Shown here in pieces: positions 32,003 through 47,824 of a stretch of DNA of 64,000 nt (positions are counted from its first letter, which is position 1; each line of letters starts with the position of its first letter). This DNA is from Bacteroidota bacterium (GTDB taxonomy: Bacteria; Bacteroidota; Bacteroidia; Chitinophagales; Chitinophagaceae), in NCBI GenBank assembly GCA_028876495.1, contig JAGWRO010000097.1, forward strand, positions 1 through 64,000, read 5' to 3'. Both the position numbers and the translations under genes were made by a program. The notes below the pieces were generated by a model. It did not search any database. It had not been told where the DNA came from and worked only from the letters and a program-made list of their open reading frames with translations.

Positions 32003-32506
32003 TTATAAATTCTTACCGGGAGTGAACTTTTTCGATTGTATTTCACCTCCCTTTACTTCCAATTCTTCATACCGTCCTGTTCTTTCAGTAATATTTATTC
32101 TAAAAAAGATCCCTGAAATTTCTGAATAATCACCGGTATGAAAAGGCCATTCCGGGCTTAACTTTACTGTTTCGCTGGATACGAGCGGAAGTTTCCGGTT
32201 CATCAGGCTTTGTACTGCAACATTTATGTCTTTCTCGTTTGTCAATTCTTCGAATGTTCCCCAAAGCAAAACGGATTCCCAGTCTGCCATATCTTTCATA
32301 GTATCAACCTGGAAGCAAACGGTTGGGTTTTTACGCATAATAGATATCTTCAAACCTTCGAGGCTGTGTGCATATAAATGTTCCCCATCGTATGCATAGC
32401 TTATAGGAAGAATATACATTTTACCATCTCCATAGCAACCTAATCTGCCGATCACATTTTCTTTTATGACTTTTTCAATTTTGCTATTATCTAAAATTCC
32501 GAACAT
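32003..32506 (-). CDS. Pyridoxamine 5'-phosphate oxidase-family flavin-binding protein
   Basis: A 167-residue split-barrel protein from the ATG at 32506 (MFGILDNSKIEKVIKENVIGRLG). GDGKMYILPISYAYDGEHLYAHSLEG and NPTVCFQVD are typical of the PNPOx-like FMN-binding group, members of which reduce nitro compounds or heme or act as flavin-nucleotide-binding proteins. The exact activity cannot be told. An upstream in-frame ATG at 32533 adds nine unlikely residues. The gene is divergent from the ligase fossil. Confidence 0.82.
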   Translation of the reverse strand: MFGILDNSKIEKVIKENVIGRLGCYGDGKMYILPISYAYDGEHLYAHSLEGLKISIMRKNPTVCFQVDTMKDMADWESVLLWGTFEELTNEKDINVAVQSLMNRKLPLVSSETVKLSPEWPFHTGDYSEISGIFFRINITERTGRYEELEVKGGEIQSKKFTPGKNL

Positions 32507-32665
32507 GGCCTTAATTTTTAGTAAAACTAACATGGGCTTAAGGATTCTAAAATGATGCCTATCAATTTAGTTAATGACAATAATCATACAGGGCATCTGA
32601 CAATCCATTCTCCTGACCAATAAATATAATCAGCACCAAATGAATTAATTTTTTTAAGGTATTAT

Positions 32666-32699
32666 AAAATAAAAATTGGTAAAATTTATCCGTTTACTA
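32666..32699 (+). repeat. 34-base dispersed element, copy 8, at the ligase breakpoint
   Basis: AAAATAAAAATTGG begins and CCGTTTACTA ends the copy, 34 bases. Its right arm overlaps the first recognisable ligase codons (LLSWDEL). Confidence 0.8.
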
Positions 32700-33218
32700 A
32701 GCTGGGATGAATTAGCAGAATTAAGAGAAACTTCTCGCGAAATGAACAGTGAAGGCATCATGCTGAAGAAAAAAGATTCTGTTTACAAAGTCGGCCGAAA
32801 GCGTGGCGACTGGTGGAAATGGAAAATCGATCCGTTGGTTATTGATTGCGTTTTGGTTTATGCGCAAAAAGGAAGTGGCCGCAGAAGTAATTTGTATAAG
32901 GCATACACTTTTGCTGTAAAAGATGGAGATGAGTTGGTAACTTTTACGAAAGCATATTCCGGCTTAACTGATAAAGAATTTGCACAAGTAGATTCGTTTA
33001 TAAAAAGAAATTCAATTGAAAAATTTGGACCCGTTCGTACGGTTAAACCTGAACTTGTTTTTGAAATTGCCTTTTAAGGAATTGCCGCAAGCAACCGCCA
33101 CAAAAGCGGTGTGGCAATGCGTTTCCCGAGAATGAACCGGTGGCGAAAAGACAAAACGGTTGATGAAATTAACACACTTGATGATTTAAAAAAAATGCTG
33201 GAGATGTATGGGAAATAA
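32676..33218 (+). pseudogene. ATP-dependent DNA ligase remnant, 5'-truncated with in-frame stop
   Basis: The reading frame matches the C-terminal third of a bacterial ATP-dependent DNA ligase of the repair-cluster type. It starts near LLSWDELAELRETSRE and keeps adenylation motif IV (EGIMLKKKDS) and motif V (DWWKWK), then the OB fold (RRSNLYKAYTFAV, AYSGLTDKEF, FGPVRTVKPELVFEIAF). The N-terminal part with the adenylated lysine (KxDG) is missing. At 33075-33077 a TAA replaces the usual Glu codon; the frame then continues in good ligase sequence (SNRHKSGVAMRFPRMNRW) to a normal TAA at 33216. It cannot be a working ligase. The Lhr helicase downstream is its normal partner. Confidence 0.9.
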
Positions 33219-33237: not shown

Positions 33238-33750
33238 TCACTTATTTCCAAGTTCCGCGAGCTTTCTTATTGTATTGACATTTCGAACTGTTCCATTCTC
33301 AGCAATTTTTGGAAATTTAAGTTTCGATTGTCCCATGCCGTTAGGGAAGTGGATGTAAATCTCACGGCCGGAAAGGACAATTTCTTCCGGGCCCGCATTT
33401 TTAAATTCCTGCAAAATATTTGCAGGTACTTTTTCAGTAAAAAATAATATGCCTACCTGCGCAGGATTAGCTTCGGGGAAAGGATTTTTTTCGAGGATTT
33501 TGTCAAGTTCAGCAATTGTCCTTATGATCACTGTTATCACTTTTTCTAGTTTTGTTTTGAGCGCCTTTTCCAATTTTTTTAAAACCTTATCTTCTGAAAG
33601 CTTGCTTTCAAAAATCACGTTGCCGCTTTGAATGTAAGTGCGCACATTTTTAAATCCCGCTTCTTCGCAAAGTGCTTTCAATTCAGTCATGGGAAGTATG
33701 TTGTTTCCTCCCACGTTTATTCCCCTTAAAAGCGCTACAAATGTTTGCAT
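33238..33750 (-). CDS. DUF1697 domain-containing protein
   Basis: A 170-residue protein of the DUF1697 family, function unknown. It opens with FVALLRGINVGGNNILPM, the family signature, and continues with LCEEAGFKNVRTYIQSGNVIFES and the KNPFPEANPAQVGILFF block. No catalytic assignment is known. It is inserted between the ligase fossil and the Lhr helicase on the opposite strand, where an intact repair cluster would have ligase and helicase adjacent. It may therefore mark the rearrangement. Confidence 0.9.
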   Translation of the reverse strand: MQTFVALLRGINVGGNNILPMTELKALCEEAGFKNVRTYIQSGNVIFESKLSEDKVLKKLEKALKTKLEKVITVIIRTIAELDKILEKNPFPEANPAQVGILFFTEKVPANILQEFKNAGPEEIVLSGREIYIHFPNGMGQSKLKFPKIAENGTVRNVNTIRKLAELGNK

Positions 33751-33831: not shown

Positions 33832-36366
33832 ATGAAATTAAAAAATACTTTTGGCTTTCAAATTATCGATCAGTGGCTTACCAACAAAGGCTTCGTGCCT
33901 TTCCGTTTCCAGGAAGAAACGTGGCAGCATATTGTAAATAAAAAATCAGGGCTTGTAAATGCACCAACCGGTTGCGGAAAAACGTTTTCAGTTTTTTTAG
34001 GAGCAATAATTAATTTCATAAATGATCACCCGGAAAACTATCAAACCAAAAATAAAAACGGTTTACAACTTTTGTGGATAACACCCTTGCGCGCGCTGGC
34101 AAAGGACATCGGCCGGGCCATGGAAGAAGTAATTGCCGAATTGGGAATGAGCTGGCAAGTCGGCATTCGCAACGGCGACACTTCGATTGCTGAACGAGCC
34201 AAACAAAAAAGAAATGTTCCCGAAGTGCTCATCATCACGCCGGAAAGTTTGCATCTTTTACTCGCACAGAAAAATTATCCGGATGTTTTTAAACCACTTA
34301 TAATAACTGCTGTTGATGAATGGCACGAGTTGCTGGGCAGTAAGCGTGGTGTACAGGTAGAACTGGCGCTTTCGAGAATTATCGGGCTAAGTATCGACAA
34401 CAGTAAACAAACAAAAAAAGCAGATTTTCATTCGGGAGTTTGCGTTTGGGGTATTAGTGCCACCATCGGCAATTTAGGAGAAGCAAGGGAAGTGTTACTT
34501 TCTCCGCTTTCACAAAAAGGATTGGATCAAAAAGACTTTGTAACAGTTACTGCAAAAATTGATAAACCGATAAAAGTCGAATCCATTTTCCCTGACGAGA
34601 TTGAAAAATATCCGTGGGCCGGACATTTGGGTATCAAGCTTGTTGAAAAAGTGATCCCGATCATTATGGAAAGCATGACCACGCTTATTTTTATCAATAC
34701 AAGAGGCATGAGTGAAATGTGGTACCAGGCTTTGCTGAATGCATGTCCCGATCTTGCAGGAGCGATTGCTTTGCATCACGGAAGCATTGAACAGGATTTG
34801 AGATTTTGGGTGGAAGAAAATTTGCATACTGGAAATTTAAAAGCGGTGGTTTGTACCGCCAGCCTTGATCTTGGTGTTGATTTCAGGCCGGTTGAAACGG
34901 TGATACAAGTTGGCTCACCAAAAGGAGTTGCGCGCTTTTTGCAAAGAGCCGGAAGAAGCGGTCACCGACCGGGAGAAGTGAGTAAGATTTATTTTTTGCC
35001 GACGCATTCGCTGGAACTGATAGAAGCTGCGGCACTTAAAGATTCCATCGCTATTAATTTGATTGAAAGCCGTGAGCCAAGAATTTTGTGTTATGATGTG
35101 TTCATTCAGTATTTAAGCACGCTCGCTATTTCGGATGGATTTTATCCTGAAAATATTTTAAAAGAAATAAGATCAACTTACTGCTACCGGGATATCACGG
35201 ATGAAGAATGGCAACAAATTTTGCACTTTGTAACTTCTGGCGGTGTTGCGCTTCAGCAATATGATGATTACAAAAAAGTGGAGATCATTGACGGACTTTA
35301 CAAAATAAACAGCCGGCGAATTGCGATGCGGCATCGAATGCACATCGGAACGATAGTAAGTGACCCAATGTTGAAAGTAAAATTTTTAGGAGGTGGTTAC
35401 GTGGGCGTAATTGAAGAGTGGTTCATAGCGGGAATGCAGCCGGGCGACGTGTTTACTTTAGCAGGAAGAACACTTGAATTTGTGATGATAAAAGATATGA
35501 CTTGCATCGCGAGGAAATCAAATGCAAAAAAATCACGGATACCAAGCTGGCAAGGCGGAAGAATGCCGCTTTCAGCAAATCTTGGTTTTATGCTCAGAAA
35601 AAAATTTGATGAAGCAGCCTCCCCTGAATCCCCTCCCGGACAGGCGACTTTGAAAGAACCGGAATTAGAAATTCTAAAACCACTTTTTGAATTGCAGGGT
35701 TACCTTTCGCATATTCCAAAACAGAATGAATTGCTGATTGAACAAATTGAAACGAAAGATGGATTTCACCTTTTTGTTTTTCCTTTTGAAGGAAGATTGG
35801 TTCATGAAGCTATGGCAGCAATTCTTGCTTATCGCCTGAGTCGCATTCAACCAATTACTTTTTCTTTCGCAATGAATGATTATGGATTTGAATTGTTGAG
35901 TGATCAGCCAATACCGTTAGATAACGATAATGCTTATACGCTTTTTTCTACTGAAAATCTATTTGAAGATATTCAGCGCAGCGTGAATAGTGCTGAAATG
36001 GCAAAAAGAAAGTTTCGTGACATAGCGGTTATCGGTGGATTGATCTTCCAGGGTTTTCCGGGCGAGCAAAAAAAAGCGCGGCACCTGCAATCATCTGCTT
36101 CTTTACTCTTCAACGTTTTCTCCGAATATGAACCCAATAATTTATTGCTGCGGCAGGCTTACAACGAAGTAATGGAACAACAAATGGAAGAACAACGCCT
36201 TCGTGATATGCTCGAAAGAATTCAAAAAGGAAAAATAATTATTACGTATCCGCGCCGCTTAACGCCTTTTTGTTTCCCGATAAAAGTGGACAGTATGCGT
36301 GAAGATCTTTCGTCAGAAAAACTGGAAGAACGGGTAAAGAAAATGCAGCTTCAACTGGAAAAATAA
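33832..36366 (+). CDS. Ligase-associated Lhr-type DEXH DNA helicase
   Basis: This is a superfamily 2 helicase of the Lhr-core type found with an ATP-dependent DNA ligase, an MBL exonuclease and PdeM in a DNA-damage cluster. Its 844 residues carry Walker A NAPTGCGKT (about 43-51), the DEXH box as DEWH (Asp162), motif III SATIGN, motif VI QRAGRSGHRPGE, and the Lhr-specific winged-helix and DEAD-associated domains (FEGRLVHEAMAAILAYR). All motifs are intact and no frameshift is seen. The partner ligase upstream is a pseudogene, and PdeM lies about 11 kb away. Confidence 0.93.
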   Translation: MKLKNTFGFQIIDQWLTNKGFVPFRFQEETWQHIVNKKSGLVNAPTGCGKTFSVFLGAIINFINDHPENYQTKNKNGLQLLWITPLRALAKDIGRAMEEVIAELGMSWQVGIRNGDTSIAERAKQKRNVPEVLIITPESLHLLLAQKNYPDVFKPLIITAVDEWHELLGSKRGVQVELALSRIIGLSIDNSKQTKKADFHSGVCVWGISATIGNLGEAREVLLSPLSQKGLDQKDFVTVTAKIDKPIKVESIFPDEIEKYPWAGHLGIKLVEKVIPIIMESMTTLIFINTRGMSEMWYQALLNACPDLAGAIALHHGSIEQDLRFWVEENLHTGNLKAVVCTASLDLGVDFRPVETVIQVGSPKGVARFLQRAGRSGHRPGEVSKIYFLPTHSLELIEAAALKDSIAINLIESREPRILCYDVFIQYLSTLAISDGFYPENILKEIRSTYCYRDITDEEWQQILHFVTSGGVALQQYDDYKKVEIIDGLYKINSRRIAMRHRMHIGTIVSDPMLKVKFLGGGYVGVIEEWFIAGMQPGDVFTLAGRTLEFVMIKDMTCIARKSNAKKSRIPSWQGGRMPLSANLGFMLRKKFDEAASPESPPGQATLKEPELEILKPLFELQGYLSHIPKQNELLIEQIETKDGFHLFVFPFEGRLVHEAMAAILAYRLSRIQPITFSFAMNDYGFELLSDQPIPLDNDNAYTLFSTENLFEDIQRSVNSAEMAKRKFRDIAVIGGLIFQGFPGEQKKARHLQSSASLLFNVFSEYEPNNLLLRQAYNEVMEQQMEEQRLRDMLERIQKGKIIITYPRRLTPFCFPIKVDSMREDLSSEKLEERVKKMQLQLEK

Positions 36367-40232: not shown

Positions 40233-41102
40233 ATGGACACAGAAACTACCAGGTCACTTACTGAAGTGCTAACCTCAATCATTGAAAAAAAAGTTAACCA
40301 GGAAACCTGCCAATGGCTTCTTGATAAAGCTGCTCAGTCAGCAGATAAAAATAATAATTACCAACTCAACCTCACCTTTACTTCCATACCCCGGCATACC
40401 GGAAAAGAAGAAATAGTTTTAGAAGAACCGGATGAAAAAAAGATCAATTCATTATTACCCGGCTTTACTGTTGAAGGTTGGACTGTAGACAGATTATGCA
40501 GGGTATGGTTATTAATGCAATTAGACAGTAGCGATAAAGAAGCTTATATAAACCGTATCGAAAATCTGTTTCCGCAGGCGGAGATGAATGAACTGGTAGC
40601 GCTTTATTCTGCCCTACCCGTTCTTACCTACCCTGAAGCATGGAGATTACGTTGTGCCGAAGGTATCAGAAGCAATATTGGAATTGTTTTAGACGCCATC
40701 ATGTATCATAATCCTTTTCCTGCCAAATACCTGGACGAAGGGGCGTGGAATCAATTGGTGCTTAAAGCTTTTTTTACTGATAAAAACATGAACTACATTG
40801 AAGGTTTGGATGAAAGATCAAACCAGCATTTAGCCAATACGCTTTTTGACTATGTAGAAGAACGCTGGGCCGCAGGCCGCACAACGAGTCCGCAGATATG
40901 GCGCTTAACAGGAAAGTATATGGATGGATCGCATTTTTACATGCTGGACAAATTAATGAACGAAGGAAATGAAACCAATCAACAGGCCGGTGCTCTTGCT
41001 TTAAGCGACTGCTCATTTGAAAAAGCGGCTACCGTATTGGACCAATATCCGGATCTTAAAACAGCTATTGAGCAAAGAAAATTGACCTGGCAAATGTTAT
41101 AA
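40233..41102 (+). CDS. eboA: EboA domain-containing protein
   Basis: EboA is an uncharacterised protein of the conserved ebo cluster. The 289-residue product is alpha-helical and probably cytoplasmic. The family block is clear: DAIMYHNPFPAKYLDEGAWNQ-type sequence followed by LVLKAFFTDKNMNYIEGLDER and YVEERWAAGRTTSPQIWRL. The C-terminal HFYMLDKLMNEGNETNQQA segment ends the domain. Together with eboB-F in the correct order this makes the assignment firm. Biochemistry of EboA is not known. Confidence 0.93.
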   Translation: MDTETTRSLTEVLTSIIEKKVNQETCQWLLDKAAQSADKNNNYQLNLTFTSIPRHTGKEEIVLEEPDEKKINSLLPGFTVEGWTVDRLCRVWLLMQLDSSDKEAYINRIENLFPQAEMNELVALYSALPVLTYPEAWRLRCAEGIRSNIGIVLDAIMYHNPFPAKYLDEGAWNQLVLKAFFTDKNMNYIEGLDERSNQHLANTLFDYVEERWAAGRTTSPQIWRLTGKYMDGSHFYMLDKLMNEGNETNQQAGALALSDCSFEKAATVLDQYPDLKTAIEQRKLTWQML

Positions 41103-41130
41103 AAAGTAATTATTAAATAAATTTAAAATT

Positions 41131-42114
41131 ATGTGTTGCAGCAATGAAGAGCATGCCGGAATGGAAGCAGAAAAGCTAACGGCAGCCGACCTGGAGGTTA
41201 TAAAAGGAATGCATTTTTTTGATCCGCATATTCATATGGTTTCACGAACCACCGATGATTACCAGGCGATGGCTGATGCAGGCGTGGTTGCTGTTATTGA
41301 ACCCGCCTTCTGGCTTGGGCAACCACGTACGGGTGTAGATAGTTTTAGAGATTATTATAGCAGTCTTATTGGTTGGGAAAGATTTCGTGCGTCACAGTTT
41401 GGTATTAAACATTATTGTACCATCGGGTTAAACTCACGTGAAGCCAATAATGAAAAACTGGCTGAGCAGGTAATGGAAATACTTCCCTTATTCGTATATA
41501 AAGAAGGTGTAGTTGGGGTTGGAGAAATCGGGTTTGATGACCAGACTCCAGCTGAAGAAAAATATTACAGACTGCAACTGGAACTTGCAAAAGAAGCACA
41601 CTTGCCCGTGCAAATTCATACACCGCACCGTGATAAAAAGAAGGGAACACAACGTAGTATGGATATTGCAATTGAACAAGGGCTGGATCCCTATTCGGTT
41701 ATAGTTGATCATAACAATGAAGAAACAGTTAAAGAAGTGCTAGACAGAGGATTTTGGGCAGCTTTTACTATTTATCCTTTTACCAAAATGGGCAATGAGC
41801 GTATGGTTGAAATGGTGAAGCAATATGGCACTGAGCGTATCATGATCAATTCTGCTGCTGATTGGGGGATCAGTGATCCTTTAGCGGTTCCTAAAACAGC
41901 CGCTTTAATGAAAATCAGGGGCATTGAAATAAAGGATATAGAATTAGTTTGCTACCGTAATGCTATCACTGCATTCGGACAAAGCGGGCAAATCCTGGAA
42001 TCGGATTTTCAGGAAGTTAAAAATATTGATCAATCCAAAAAGTTCCAGGGCAATACCGTTCTTCGCGGAGGGCAGGCGCCACGCATTAATAAAGGGTCTC
42101 TAATCATCAGTTAA
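41131..42114 (+). CDS. eboB: EboB, TatD-family metal-dependent hydrolase
   Basis: This is an amidohydrolase-fold enzyme of 327 residues. Metal-binding positions are visible: His-x-His in DPHIHM, Glu in GVGEIGFD, His in VQIHTPHRD, His in VIVDHNNEE and Asp in NSAADWGISDP. TatD relatives act as metal-dependent DNases or hydrolases, but the ebo version is a distinct subgroup whose substrate is unknown. It starts 28 bases after eboA and is followed at 10 bases by eboC. Confidence 0.92.
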   Translation: MCCSNEEHAGMEAEKLTAADLEVIKGMHFFDPHIHMVSRTTDDYQAMADAGVVAVIEPAFWLGQPRTGVDSFRDYYSSLIGWERFRASQFGIKHYCTIGLNSREANNEKLAEQVMEILPLFVYKEGVVGVGEIGFDDQTPAEEKYYRLQLELAKEAHLPVQIHTPHRDKKKGTQRSMDIAIEQGLDPYSVIVDHNNEETVKEVLDRGFWAAFTIYPFTKMGNERMVEMVKQYGTERIMINSAADWGISDPLAVPKTAALMKIRGIEIKDIELVCYRNAITAFGQSGQILESDFQEVKNIDQSKKFQGNTVLRGGQAPRINKGSLIIS

Positions 42115-42124
42115 TTTTTATGAA

Positions 42125-43015
42125 TTGAAAAAAGGCAAAGGTTTTCTGCAACTAATGAGGCCCGCCAATATAATCACCTCTATTGCTGATGTACTGGCCG
42201 GTATCGCTATATCAGGGTATCTGGCCAATGCAAATCTCTCTCAAAATTATCTTTCCCCCATCTTTCTTTTAATCATTTCCACTATAGGTTTGTATGGAGG
42301 TGGGGTGGTTTTTAATGATGTATTTGATGCAGAACTCGACAAGATAGAAAGACCTGAAAGGCCAATTCCTAAGGGAATTATATCTATAAAGGAAGCATCG
42401 TTCCTGGGGATTATTTTATTATTGGCAGGAATAATTTCAGCCGCAATGGTAAGCCTGCTCTCAGGAGTACTTGCCTTATCAATTGCAGTTGCTTCTCTTA
42501 TTTATGATAAGTGGTCAAAACACAATGCATTTGCCGGCCCTTTAAATATGGGATTATGTCGTGGTTTAAATCTCTTATTAGGAATCAGTATTATTGTTTC
42601 TTCCGTTGCTGCCTGGTGGTTTTTAGCGATAGTACCCGTTATTTATATAGCTGCTATCACTATGGTCAGCAGGGGCGAAGTACATGGCGGCAGTAAAAAC
42701 ATTTTATATGCTGCTGCCTTCTTTTACTGTATAGTGATTGGTGGCATTCTCTTTTTATCAACCCAAAGAAATATGCTGTGGTGGGCCATTATTTTTCTAC
42801 TTCCTTTTTCGTGGATGATTTTTTCAGCCTTAATAAGAGCGATTCGGCTACCCACTCCCAAAAATATCGGGAAGGCAGTGAAAGCCGGGGTTATTGCTTT
42901 GATTTTAATGAATGCTTCGTGGGCGGCAGCATTTGGTGCCATCAGTCTTGCTTTCTTAATCTTACTTTTGTTACCGGTTTCTTTATGGCTGGCAAAAATT
43001 TTTGCAGTTACATAA
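42125..43015 (+). CDS. eboC: EboC, UbiA-type prenyltransferase
   Basis: This is a polytopic membrane enzyme of the UbiA superfamily, which transfers isoprenoid chains to aromatic or other acceptors. Of its 296 residues, the first Asp-rich motif NDVFDAELDKIERPERP (from Asn64) matches NDxxDxxxD, and YDKWSKHNAFAGPLNMGLCRG is the second conserved region. Around nine hydrophobic helices follow. The start is TTG at 42125 (MKKGKGFLQLMRPANI); the ATG five bases upstream is closed by an immediate stop. The acceptor in the ebo pathway is unknown. Confidence 0.92.
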   Translation: MKKGKGFLQLMRPANIITSIADVLAGIAISGYLANANLSQNYLSPIFLLIISTIGLYGGGVVFNDVFDAELDKIERPERPIPKGIISIKEASFLGIILLLAGIISAAMVSLLSGVLALSIAVASLIYDKWSKHNAFAGPLNMGLCRGLNLLLGISIIVSSVAAWWFLAIVPVIYIAAITMVSRGEVHGGSKNILYAAAFFYCIVIGGILFLSTQRNMLWWAIIFLLPFSWMIFSALIRAIRLPTPKNIGKAVKAGVIALILMNASWAAAFGAISLAFLILLLLPVSLWLAKIFAVT

Positions 43016-43070
43016 CGGAGTTGTTTTAATTTTTCAGAAAATTTTATATCCTTTTTAAGTACTTTGTTAT

Positions 43071-44246
43071 ATGAATTACCTGGAGCAGTCATTTAGCGTG
43101 CATTTTGATTACAAGGTTTATTTTACCAGCGGCATTTTTGATATTTCCAATAAGGATTTTGAAAATTTCTTAAGAGAACGAACTGTTCCTTCAACTACTC
43201 AAAAAATTCTTTTTGTTATTGACGAGGGGGTTCTTAATACGCATCCGGAATTGACCGATCAAATCAGGTCTTATTTTAAAAATAATGTTTCCATGTCATT
43301 GGTAGAAGAGATGATTGTAATACCTGGCGGAGAGGAGGCAAAGAATCATTCCATGCATTTTGATTCGATAATTAAAGCCATTGATGTAAATGCAATTGAC
43401 CGCCATTCTTACGTGGCAGCCATTGGTGGCGGTTCGGTTCTGGATCTTGCCGGGTTTGCTTCTGCAGTCGCTCACAGGGGCATAAAACACATACGTATTC
43501 CCACCACGGTTTTATCTCAAAATGATTCAGGTGTTGGGGTGAAGAACGGAATCAATTTTAAAGGTAAAAAAAATTTTATTGGCAATTTCGCGCCTCCTGT
43601 TGCGGTATTTAATGATGATCGTTTTTTAGAAACACTGAGCGAAAGAGATTGGCGTTCAGGAATTGCCGAGGCCATAAAAGTAGGATTAATCAAGGATGCT
43701 AATTTCTATTGCTGGATTGAGGAAAACGTTGAAAAATTAGTACAAAGGGATCGTGAAACAATGAATTATTTAATCCGCCGTTGTGCCGCATTGCACCTTC
43801 AACATATTGCTTCCGGCGACCCTTTTGAACTTGGCTCATCCCGACCTTTGGATTTCGGCCACTGGAGTGCACACAAACTGGAACAATTATCCGGCTTTAA
43901 AATTTTACATGGAGAAGCCGTGGCCATGGGCATCGCATTGGATACAATTTATTCGGCTTTATCAGGCCACTTATTGATGGAAAAGGCTGAAAGAATAATC
44001 GAACTTTTAATAAAATTCGGTTTTGAAATTACCAATCCTTTGTTAGAGATTCAGGATGAAAACAGTGAAATATTAAAAGGCTTACAGGAATTTCGCGAAC
44101 ACCTGGGAGGACAATTAACTCTGATGTTACTGGCTGATATTGGGATCGGAGAAGAAGTTCACGATCTGAATTTCCTTTTGCTCAAACAAGCTTCAAAAAA
44201 GCTGGAGAGTTATCAACACCAAATGATAGACAATATAAAAAATTAA
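43071..44246 (+). CDS. eboD: EboD, 3-dehydroquinate synthase-like sugar phosphate cyclase
   Basis: A 391-residue NAD-dependent cyclase of the DHQ synthase superfamily. NAD and substrate motifs GGEEAKN, AAIGGGSVLDLAGFASA and RIPTTVLSQNDSGVGVKNG are intact. The zinc ligands are likely Glu in GIAEAIKVGLI and His in DFGHWSAHKLE and ILHGEAVAMG. True AroB is usually encoded elsewhere; position in the operon shows this is the ebo paralogue, probably acting on a different sugar phosphate. It starts 55 bases after eboC. Confidence 0.92.
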   Translation: MNYLEQSFSVHFDYKVYFTSGIFDISNKDFENFLRERTVPSTTQKILFVIDEGVLNTHPELTDQIRSYFKNNVSMSLVEEMIVIPGGEEAKNHSMHFDSIIKAIDVNAIDRHSYVAAIGGGSVLDLAGFASAVAHRGIKHIRIPTTVLSQNDSGVGVKNGINFKGKKNFIGNFAPPVAVFNDDRFLETLSERDWRSGIAEAIKVGLIKDANFYCWIEENVEKLVQRDRETMNYLIRRCAALHLQHIASGDPFELGSSRPLDFGHWSAHKLEQLSGFKILHGEAVAMGIALDTIYSALSGHLLMEKAERIIELLIKFGFEITNPLLEIQDENSEILKGLQEFREHLGGQLTLMLLADIGIGEEVHDLNFLLLKQASKKLESYQHQMIDNIKN

Positions 44247-44255
44247 AGAAAAAGT

Positions 44256-45461
44256 ATGTTTACTGTAGCAGGCCATTTAACGTACTGTACTAATATTCAC
44301 CAGGGAGAAAACTGGAAAGATCATTTTGCCTCCATCAAAAGTAATTTCCCTTCTATAAAAGAAAATATCTCACCCAATAATCCTATGGGCATTGGATTAC
44401 GCTTATCTAATGAAGCAAGTCTCGAACTAATCAAAAAAGAAAATCTTTCAGAATTTAAAGAATGGCTTAAAGCACAACATGCTTATGTTTTTACCATGAA
44501 CGGTTTTCCTTATGGGGGATTTCATAACACCATTGTAAAAGACCAGGTACATACGCCCGACTGGACTACTGCCGAAAGAGTGGATTACACAATTCGTTTA
44601 TTCCATATTTTATCAGCTTTATTGCCTGCTAACATGGATGGTGGTGTATCAACTTCTCCATTGAGCTACAGGCTTTGGTTTACAACAAAAGAAAGCCTGG
44701 ATAATTGCAGGGAAACGGCTACCAAAAATGTAATTCATGTGATTGAAAATCTTATACTGATTCATAAATCAACAGGAAAATTATTGCACCTTGATATAGA
44801 GCCGGAGCCCGATGGATTATTGGAGACAGGGGAAGAATTTTTAGATTGGTTTGAAAATGATTTACTTCGTTTAGGCGTGCCTGTTATAAAAGAAAAACTT
44901 AAAATTTCAGGTCAACATGCTGAAGATTTAATAAAAGAACATTTGCGTTTATGCTATGACGTATGCCATTTTGCAATCGGATACGAACCTCATAAAAAAA
45001 TCATCATCGAGGTGCTGAAACGGGGAATAAAGATTGGCAAAATTCAGATTAGTGCAGCCCTGAAATCAAAAATGGATTTAAATAATAGAAACGGCATTAA
45101 GCAAAGTTTTGAAAATTTCAATGAGCCCACTTACCTGCACCAGGTAGTGGCAAAAACCACCGATGGAAAATTATTGAGATATCCTGATCTGCCGCAAGCG
45201 ATAAAACAAATACATAATCCTGTGTTTACAGAATGGCGTGCCCATTTTCATGTACCTATATTTACCGAAAAATTTGATTTATTATTTTCCACACAAGATG
45301 AAATAAAAGAAATGCTGTCACTTCAAAAAAGTAGCCCTTTTACCAACCATCTTGAAGTGGAAACTTATACCTGGGACGTACTTCCATCAGAATTAAAATT
45401 ACCCATTCAGGATTCCATTTCCAGGGAAATGCAATGGGTTACGCAAATACTGAACAATTGA
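44256..45461 (+). CDS. eboE: EboE, xylose isomerase-like TIM-barrel protein
   Basis: A 401-residue protein with an AP-endonuclease 2/xylose isomerase-type TIM barrel. It begins TVAGHLTYCTNIHQGENW, a signature of EboE, and continues AYVFTMNGFPYGGFH, HLDIEPEPDGLLETGEEF and YDVCHFAIGYE; the acidic and His residues in these last blocks are plausible metal ligands. Isomerase or epimerase chemistry on a sugar-like intermediate is inferred from the fold; the family is annotated as a metabolite traffic protein. It is 9 bases after eboD. Confidence 0.92.
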   Translation: MFTVAGHLTYCTNIHQGENWKDHFASIKSNFPSIKENISPNNPMGIGLRLSNEASLELIKKENLSEFKEWLKAQHAYVFTMNGFPYGGFHNTIVKDQVHTPDWTTAERVDYTIRLFHILSALLPANMDGGVSTSPLSYRLWFTTKESLDNCRETATKNVIHVIENLILIHKSTGKLLHLDIEPEPDGLLETGEEFLDWFENDLLRLGVPVIKEKLKISGQHAEDLIKEHLRLCYDVCHFAIGYEPHKKIIIEVLKRGIKIGKIQISAALKSKMDLNNRNGIKQSFENFNEPTYLHQVVAKTTDGKLLRYPDLPQAIKQIHNPVFTEWRAHFHVPIFTEKFDLLFSTQDEIKEMLSLQKSSPFTNHLEVETYTWDVLPSELKLPIQDSISREMQWVTQILNN

Positions 45462-45487
45462 TTTGTTTAAAACTGAAAGAAACGTAA

Positions 45488-46834
45488 ATGAAAAAAACTG
45501 TTGTAATTGATGTAGTAGGCCTTTCTTCATCGTTAATAGGAGCACATACTCCTTTTTTGCAAAAATATATTTCTAATAAAAATCTTAGTTTGATAGAACC
45601 GATGTTGCCGGCTGTAACAACGGCTGTGCAATCAACTTACGTTACAGGCAAATGGCCTTCGGAACATGGAATTGTTGGTAATGGCTGGTACGACAGGGAA
45701 GATGGTGAAGTAAAATTTTGGAAGCAATCGAATAAACTGGTTCACGCAGAAATGATTTGGGAAAAGGCAAAAAAAGAAGATCCTTCTTTTACCTGTTCTA
45801 AAATGTTCTGGTGGTACAATATGTATTCATCCGCTGATTTTGCTGTTACGCCGAGGCCAAATTACCTGGCAGATGGAAGAAAAATACCCGACTGTTATTC
45901 TCATCCTGCGGAGTTGCGGGACAGGCTTCAAAAAGAATTGGGCCAATTCCCTTTGTTCCAGTTCTGGGGGCCGGGCGCTAACATAAAATCCACTCAATGG
46001 ATAGCCGATGCTTCCATATTAACTGATCAATGGCACAATCCGACTCTTTCATTAATTTATCTTCCGCATCTTGATTATTGCCTTCAGAAATTCGGACCTG
46101 ATTTAAGCAGGATTTCCAAAGACCTGAACGAGATAGACGCGGTGTTAGCGCAACTCGTCAGTTATTATGAAAAGAAAGATACAGAAATTATTATTCTTTC
46201 TGAATATGGCATAGGCGCGGTAAACAATCCCATACATTTAAATCGTTTGTTCAGGGAAAATAATTTACTGCAGATACGTGTAGAAAGAGGTTTGGAATTA
46301 TTGGATCCAGGCGCTTCAAAAGCCTTTGTGGTAGCAGATCATCAAATTGCGCATGTTTATATCAATGATAATTCTGTAACTGACAAAGTGAGGAATCTTT
46401 TGGAAAAAGTTCCGGGGATAGAGCTGATTTTAGATAAAACGGCGCAAAGTAATTATCATATTGATCATGAACGTAGTGGCGACCTCGTATTAATGGCCGA
46501 TCAGCAAAGTTGGTTTACTTATTATTTTTGGCTGGATGATGCCGTTGCTCCGGATTATGCGCGGGTAGTAGATATTCATAAAAAACCGGGGTACGATCCT
46601 GTTGAAATGTTCATGACTTCAAAACTACGGGCAGGCTATAAACTATTGAGGAAGAAAGCAGGATTTCGATATGTAATGGACGTAATCCCTTTAGACGCAA
46701 CGCTGGTAAAAGGTTCGCACGGAAGAACAGGAACTCCTGCAGAACTTCACCCAATTATTATTACCAACAATCCTTTAGGCAAAAATATTTTTGCAACAGA
46801 GGTACAAGCAATTATTTGGAACACTCTTTTTTGA
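45488..46834 (+). CDS. eboF: EboF, alkaline phosphatase-superfamily (nucleotide pyrophosphatase-like) protein
   Basis: A 448-residue protein of the alkaline phosphatase/NPP superfamily. The nucleophile region reads MLPAVTTAVQSTYVTGKWPSE and then HGIVGNGWYDRE, both family hallmarks. However, the usual D..GH..GP metal motif appears as LDYCLQKFGP and the usual DHG as SEYGIG, so several classical zinc ligands are replaced; the final GSHGRTGTP His remains. The ebo subgroup may use fewer metals. No signal peptide is visible. It is the last ebo gene, 26 bases after eboE. Confidence 0.9.
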   Translation: MKKTVVIDVVGLSSSLIGAHTPFLQKYISNKNLSLIEPMLPAVTTAVQSTYVTGKWPSEHGIVGNGWYDREDGEVKFWKQSNKLVHAEMIWEKAKKEDPSFTCSKMFWWYNMYSSADFAVTPRPNYLADGRKIPDCYSHPAELRDRLQKELGQFPLFQFWGPGANIKSTQWIADASILTDQWHNPTLSLIYLPHLDYCLQKFGPDLSRISKDLNEIDAVLAQLVSYYEKKDTEIIILSEYGIGAVNNPIHLNRLFRENNLLQIRVERGLELLDPGASKAFVVADHQIAHVYINDNSVTDKVRNLLEKVPGIELILDKTAQSNYHIDHERSGDLVLMADQQSWFTYYFWLDDAVAPDYARVVDIHKKPGYDPVEMFMTSKLRAGYKLLRKKAGFRYVMDVIPLDATLVKGSHGRTGTPAELHPIIITNNPLGKNIFATEVQAIIWNTLF

Positions 46835-47173: not shown

Positions 47174-47824
47174 TTGCCAGCGCCCGTTCGTTTTATATTT
47201 CATCAGCAAACACTCTGGCTTTCTGCAGCCCGTTGCATCTTTTGGGAAGAAGAAAGAGCGCTTATTCTTTCTGACCTGCATTTCGGGAAATCTGGGCACT
47301 TCAGAAAATCCGGCATCGGCATTCCACAAAATATTTTTAAAGAAGACCTGCAAAGATTATTTGCGCAGATCCAGTTTTTTAAACCCAAAATTGTATTAAT
47401 CGCCGGCGATATGTTTCATAGTGATGAAAATAAGGAAGCCGGTTTTTTCCTTAAATGGAGAAAAGATATACCGCAGACCGATTTTTATTTAATAAGAGGC
47501 AACCATGATATTTTGCCGGCGGGCTTTTACCAAAAAGCCAATATCACCGTCTTTGAAAATAAGTTAACTATAAAGGATTTTTGTTTCGCTCATGATGCCG
47601 CGGGTTGTGATGATAAATTATTTACTTTTTCAGGCCATATACATCCCGGCATCAAAATGAACGGAGCTGGAAATCAAAGCATCATGCTTCCCTGTTTTTA
47701 TTTTGGAGAGAAATACGCCGTATTACCCGCTTTCAGCGCGTTTACCGGGCTCGTAAAAATAAAACCGTCAACTAAAGATCATGTTTTTGCTTTGGTCGAG
47801 AACTCGGTTATTAAAATTCAATAA
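47174..47824 (+). CDS. pdeM: Ligase-associated DNA damage response endonuclease PdeM
   Basis: A calcineurin-like metallophosphoesterase of 216 residues. The five metal blocks are present: SDLHFGK, GDMFHS, RGNHD, FSGHIHPGIK and the central His in FAHDAAG. The N-terminal LWLSAARCIFWEEERALILSD is specific to PdeM, the nuclease that belongs to the same repair cluster as the ATP-dependent ligase and the Lhr helicase. Here it is detached from both by about 11 kb. The best start is TTG at 47174; the frame is open upstream to 47099 without a better codon. Confidence 0.88.
   Translation: MPAPVRFIFHQQTLWLSAARCIFWEEERALILSDLHFGKSGHFRKSGIGIPQNIFKEDLQRLFAQIQFFKPKIVLIAGDMFHSDENKEAGFFLKWRKDIPQTDFYLIRGNHDILPAGFYQKANITVFENKLTIKDFCFAHDAAGCDDKLFTFSGHIHPGIKMNGAGNQSIMLPCFYFGEKYAVLPAFSAFTGLVKIKPSTKDHVFALVENSVIKIQ

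Follow-up and report, generated by a model that had tools for sequence, protein, structure and literature searches.

Can an Lhr-type helicase work without the ATP-dependent DNA ligase that was once encoded beside it? The question is raised by a 64,000-nucleotide stretch of DNA (hereafter the window) from a genome of the Ginsengibacter group, in which a sequence-only reading had proposed the fossil of such a ligase next to an intact helicase. The features on which the analysis rests are the following:

32003..32533, minus strand: pyridoxamine-phosphate-oxidase-like protein (PF12900), left neighbour of the ligase remnant; it adjoins Lhr in the relative G094 too
32698..32703, no strand: apparent deletion junction; the left flank is common with sister G094 up to 32698, and homology to ligase DNA begins at 32703
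32703..33218, plus strand: remnant of a LigB-type (TIGR04120) ATP-dependent DNA ligase, identified by ligase profile matches, with one in-frame TAA at 33075-33077
33238..33750, minus strand: DUF1697 protein (PF08002), intact; it lies between ligase and helicase in the relative G088 too
33832..36366, plus strand: ligase-associated DEXH helicase of the Lhr-Core type (TIGR04121), intact, 844 aa, identified by profile match
47174..47824, plus strand: ligase-associated endonuclease PdeM / MPE (TIGR04123), intact; the helicase lies about 11 kb upstream of it

The ligase remnant stands far above chance level in NCBIfam matching. Up to its stop codon it matches NF006701 (E 2.4e-62) and TIGR04120 (E 2e-59), and the frame read through the single TAA scores 276.7 bits over positions 350-526 of the 526 in TIGR04120; the C-terminal third of the ligase is thus present, as had been claimed. 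Both this score and that of the part before the stop (202 bits) fall below the curated cut-off of 400 bits, and the frame is interrupted at 33075: the segment is a remnant and no member gene of the family. Model positions 1-349 are gone, and with them the N-terminal DNA-binding domain. The adenylation lysine of motif I, which the earlier reading had found lacking, belongs to this missing part, and what is left comprises motifs IV and V of the nucleotidyltransferase domain together with the OB domain, the stop lying inside the latter and ahead of motif VI. The stop was said to replace a conserved Glu codon, and all eight intact relatives in the genus indeed carry Glu at this column; the 46 in-frame ligase codons beyond it, up to the TAA at 33216-33218, were also counted correctly. 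The open frame that ends at the first TAA comprises 133 residues from a TTG at 32676, and its first 10 codons are not ligase. A promoter scan found 4 where 3.9 were expected, and no transfer RNA was found within the window.

The helicase, which had been described as fully intact, matches TIGR04121 with 1068.3 bits (cut-off 850) over model positions 2-803 of 804. Its nearest solved sequences are 5v9x and 7lhl, both of which are M. smegmatis Lhr according to PMC10953399. As to the partners of the helicase, the earlier reading had named an MBL exonuclease only. The search for it came back empty: no member of the Exo family (TIGR04122) exceeds the cut-off of 325 bits in the window genome, whose assembly is 99.96% complete in 99 contigs, and the best match, a 470-residue frame, reaches 42.3 bits. 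The partner that had been overlooked is the nuclease PdeM, which is usually found next to this helicase and whose gene is intact within the window (206.8 bits in TIGR04123, cut-off 150); its nearest solved sequence is 6nvo, 'Nuclease MPE' (E 2.2e-25). The proposed genome search for a second ATP-dependent ligase did yield one, a 663-residue DNA ligase D, which is the sole further ligase-domain match; a second LigB-type ligase was not found in the assembly. Between helicase and PdeM, positions 40233-46834 hold six consecutive genes (in order: no Pfam match, TatD-like, UbiA-like, 3-dehydroquinate-synthase-like, no Pfam match, type I phosphodiesterase), an order similar to that of the ebo cluster.

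Whether the ligase was truncated in the organism or in the assembly was assessed by comparison with relatives. G094 is the closest sister of the window genome, with a helicase 93.6% identical, and it carries the left neighbours of the window followed directly by the helicase, 314 bp past the pyridoxamine-oxidase-like gene. The similarity between the two genomes ends at 32698, with a last block of 28 matching bases in 33. Since the left flank up to this point and the left neighbour beside Lhr both recur in the sister, the break at 32698-32703 looks like a real deletion. Of the possibility that an assembly join lay at about 32690, the junction has stood, at slightly refined coordinates, and the artefact, as far as the assemblies can tell, has not; an assembly chimera was rejected on the recurrence of flank and neighbour order. 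The noncoding left flank (32626-32698) is conserved in G094 up to the break, beyond which the genomes differ, and the breaks of both share one left edge. A search of the G094 gap for traces of the ligase or of DUF1697 gave only a chance-level ligase match within the helicase region (E 0.29), and as the G094 assembly is 85% complete, the absence of a ligase elsewhere in it is likely rather than certain.

Two further relatives point to the ancestral order. In G093, Exo, ligase and helicase are consecutive, and a pyridoxamine-phosphate-oxidase-like gene, 61% identical to that of the window, lies upstream of Exo; in G088, the order is ligase, DUF1697, helicase, as in the window. When the left flank of the window was compared with the sequence preceding Exo in G093, only chance-level matches were found. 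The ancestor would have carried Exo-ligase-(DUF1697)-Lhr, an arrangement retained in G093 and G088, and a deletion in the window lineage would have taken Exo together with the N-terminal two thirds of the ligase, leaving the C-terminal third. The latter would also have gained its nonsense codon, either before or after the deletion.

The sequence-only reading had presented the loss as an event of this lineage, and in this respect it needs correction: the loss is not peculiar to the window. In a sample of 20 genomes from the genus, 13 contain the helicase and eight the ligase over cut-off, and five of the 13 have the helicase without a full ligase, namely the window genome, G082, G083 (79% complete), G084 (92%) and G094. 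On the helicase tree this amounts to at least four ligase losses in the genus, assuming no regain and with some reserve owing to the incompleteness of G083, G084 and G094. Ligase and helicase may also lie on different contigs, as in G091 and G092, so that absence from the flank is not absence from the genome. Among 80 helicase loci of named genomes, a ligase was present within the fetched flanks of 33, and each of these 33 ligases runs without a stop to its C-terminus (at least residue 550 of 555). None is a remnant like that of the window, within a scan that excluded ligase matches of at most 38% identity and above E 1e-8 and that more decayed remnants would escape.

The same pattern extends to the family. 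In 79 Chitinophagaceae genomes, 38 contain the ligase, 39 Exo, 54 the helicase and 56 PdeM over the respective cut-offs. All 38 ligase carriers have Exo and PdeM, and the carriers of Exo are these same genomes plus G033, which is cut by a contig end. A ligase over cut-off is missing in 17 of the 54 Lhr carriers, incomplete assemblies among them; none of the 17 has Exo, 14 have PdeM over cut-off and the other three contain PdeM fragments. Only two of them hold a partial ligase, the window genome and G041, the latter an N-terminal piece.

In the phylum sample (247 genomes, each at least 90% complete), all 37 genomes with a ligase over cut-off have Exo, helicase and PdeM, and all 62 Lhr carriers have PdeM, while 10 of the 62, the remnant of the window aside, contain no ligase at E 1e-50. 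Another 36 genomes, nearly all outside the class and not counting the remnant, encode divergent ligases below the cut-off, and 21 of these have no helicase over cut-off; in seven genomes Exo exceeds its cut-off and the helicase is absent. The ligase-Exo pair is also found without the helicase, again outside the class. Taken together, the distribution suggests that the helicase pairs with PdeM and the ligase with Exo, forming two separable modules. The divergent ligases and Exo proteins in helicase-less genomes favor modules that are able to stand alone over a fixed order of loss. The divergent LigB (about 200-350 bits) and Exo (210-230 bits) proteins below the curated cut-offs, many of which belong to one family (f23), are often unaccompanied by a helicase and may represent a separate subfamily. 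Two genomes of another family (G196 and G215 of f21) have PdeM over cut-off and no helicase over E 1e-90.

How recently the ligase was lost was estimated from the codons of the remnant, its first 10, which are not ligase-like, having been removed from the alignment. Under a branch codon model, omega on the remnant branch is 0.044 against 0.020 elsewhere (p 0.155), and neutrality of the whole branch is rejected (p 9e-5). The branch was divided into a constrained and a neutral part under four topologies; the best fit makes 1-3% of it neutral, about 7-14% is the upper limit (a drop of 1.92 log units), and a share of zero is also allowed, at no more than 0.9 log units from the best. G094 split off at 44% of the corresponding branch of the helicase tree (0.362 of 0.827). 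With a neutral share this small, inactivation falls after that split, so that the ligase was still under selection well past it, and the ligase loss in G094 would be separate from that of the window; a loss common to both genomes is rejected, since setting the neutral share to 0.45, a value close to the split itself, costs 4.3-5.9 log units relative to the best fit under the four topologies. The claim that the loss is recent was therefore upheld. The remnant carries 8 changes (7 missense and the stop) at 130 columns that do not vary among the other eight genomes, compared with 0-3 for each of the eight other ligases at columns otherwise invariant, which speaks in favor of some decay. Divergence from G088 is no greater past the stop (pN 0.050) than ahead of it (pN 0.074), and the codon data alone do not show a neutral phase. 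The ligase tree rejects grouping of the remnant with G093 (AU p 0.046) or with G088 (AU p 0.027) and accepts it beside the two jointly (AU p 0.13), and the helicase tree places the window genome with G093, with a support of only 52% for that arrangement; the placement of the remnant in the ligase tree counts against a simple history.

Selection on the helicase bears directly on whether it is functional in the absence of the ligase. From a codon alignment of the genus, cleared of columns in which gaps exceed 30%, Lhr omega is 0.046 on the five ligase-less tips and 0.061 elsewhere (p 0.01), and the codon model detected no relaxed selection on these five tips. On the window tip the value is 0.030 versus 0.059. 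Because the loss is so recent, constraint on this tip mostly reflects time spent with a ligase, and the weight of the argument rests on G082, G083, G084 and G094. The undiminished constraint in the ligase-less lineages argues that the helicase does work without the ligase, which answers, as far as comparison can, the question that the earlier reading had posed.

We consider it probable that the window contains a genuine, recent ligase pseudogene, beside which Lhr and PdeM persist as a self-sufficient unit, the Exo-LigB pair being droppable. The loss of the ligase could instead be the beginning of a loss of the entire system, with helicase and PdeM as relics that are not yet broken. Such a course is suggested by six of the 20 genus genomes, which lack both a ligase over cut-off and any helicase match at E 1e-40, two of the six being only 59% and 72% complete, and by G080, in which the helicase (locus L050, 1577-3747) is spread over three frames and has lost its first 45 residues, with the adjoining PdeM open. 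The G080 helicase has perhaps been caught decaying; the frameshifts may also be errors, given that this genome is 72% complete and in about 620 contigs. Against general decay, Lhr is not relaxed in the ligase-less lineages, and the two-gene state looks stable, with 17 of 54 Lhr carriers in the family lacking the ligase and PdeM kept in every one of the 62 Lhr carriers of the phylum. We regard this course as unlikely.

Less probable still is that the organism has an intact ligase and an intact Exo, the gap and the stop being products of assembly or sequencing error. The low omega of the remnant would equally be expected of an intact gene, and a near-zero neutral fraction is what an intact ligase hidden by an assembly error would give, but error would have to account for each of two separate lesions. 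Moreover, an almost complete assembly contains neither Exo nor the N-terminus of the ligase, the flank and the adjacency of the pyridoxamine-oxidase-like gene to Lhr are matched in the independent assembly of the sister, and the seven missense changes at otherwise invariant columns exceed the number in any intact relative. We give least credence of all to the idea that the remnant still yields a useful C-terminal ligase fragment of at most 133 residues (from TTG 32676 or later) that is kept by selection. The open frame and its low omega would agree with such a fragment; however, the frame begins with non-ligase codons and stops within the OB domain ahead of motif VI, and no similar piece occurs among the 33 ligases flanking the helicase loci. 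Since divergence is not raised past the stop relative to the codons preceding it, recency accounts for the low omega, and a retained mini-protein was rejected on this ground.

The reading of a recent pseudogene beside a functioning Lhr-PdeM unit can be extended, at somewhat better than even chances, to the cluster as a whole: Exo-LigB and Lhr-PdeM would be independent modules, the latter self-sufficient with general ligases, and the window would be one of several separate losses of Exo-LigB in the genus, caught early. Lhr and PdeM would continue as a self-sufficient damage-processing unit, in which Lhr would move 3' to 5' and open the damaged duplex, PdeM would incise the single strand so exposed, and the resulting nick or gap would be sealed by NAD-dependent LigA, expected as the replication ligase, or by DNA ligase D. 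Exo and LigB would together form a separable and dispensable module for end processing and sealing. The activities assumed here for Lhr-Core and PdeM are reportedly those of the Pseudomonas putida homologues. The titles and abstracts of the literature searched contain no description of the two-module split, which may well be in print already.

The case is one of ordinary gene loss caught early rather than something new, and the modular split is its useful part. A lineage freshly without ligase and Exo, with a constrained helicase and nuclease, amounts to a natural knock-out, and comparison with its close four-gene relatives would allow testing of which steps depend on LigB and Exo and which on Lhr and PdeM only. 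This genuine and recent pseudogene belongs to a gene cluster of a familiar type, and its value is a modest one, that of a natural experiment. According to PMC10140301, the LigB operon has no known role.

Compared with the four-gene cluster of Exo, LigB, Lhr-Core and PdeM (TIGR04122, TIGR04120, TIGR04121 and TIGR04123, respectively), the window has Lhr and PdeM over the cut-offs, a ligase remnant of the same family and the gene order of G093 and G088. Unlike the cluster, it has no Exo, its ligase is truncated and interrupted, and its PdeM is distant from Lhr. It resembles the other Lhr-PdeM carriers of the family without LigB in its intact helicase and in the absence of a full ligase and of Exo, and differs from them in still having a recognizable ligase remnant beside the helicase. 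A more distant parallel is the mycobacterial Lhr-Nei2 operon, again an Lhr-type helicase in DNA repair with partners other than LigB; mycobacterial Lhr acts with Nei2 in crosslink repair, and the authors propose Lhr as the anchor of a pathway whose partners vary (PMC11323726). In contrast to the window, the mycobacterial protein is a full-length, tetrameric Lhr with a C-terminal domain, and Nei2 takes the place of PdeM.
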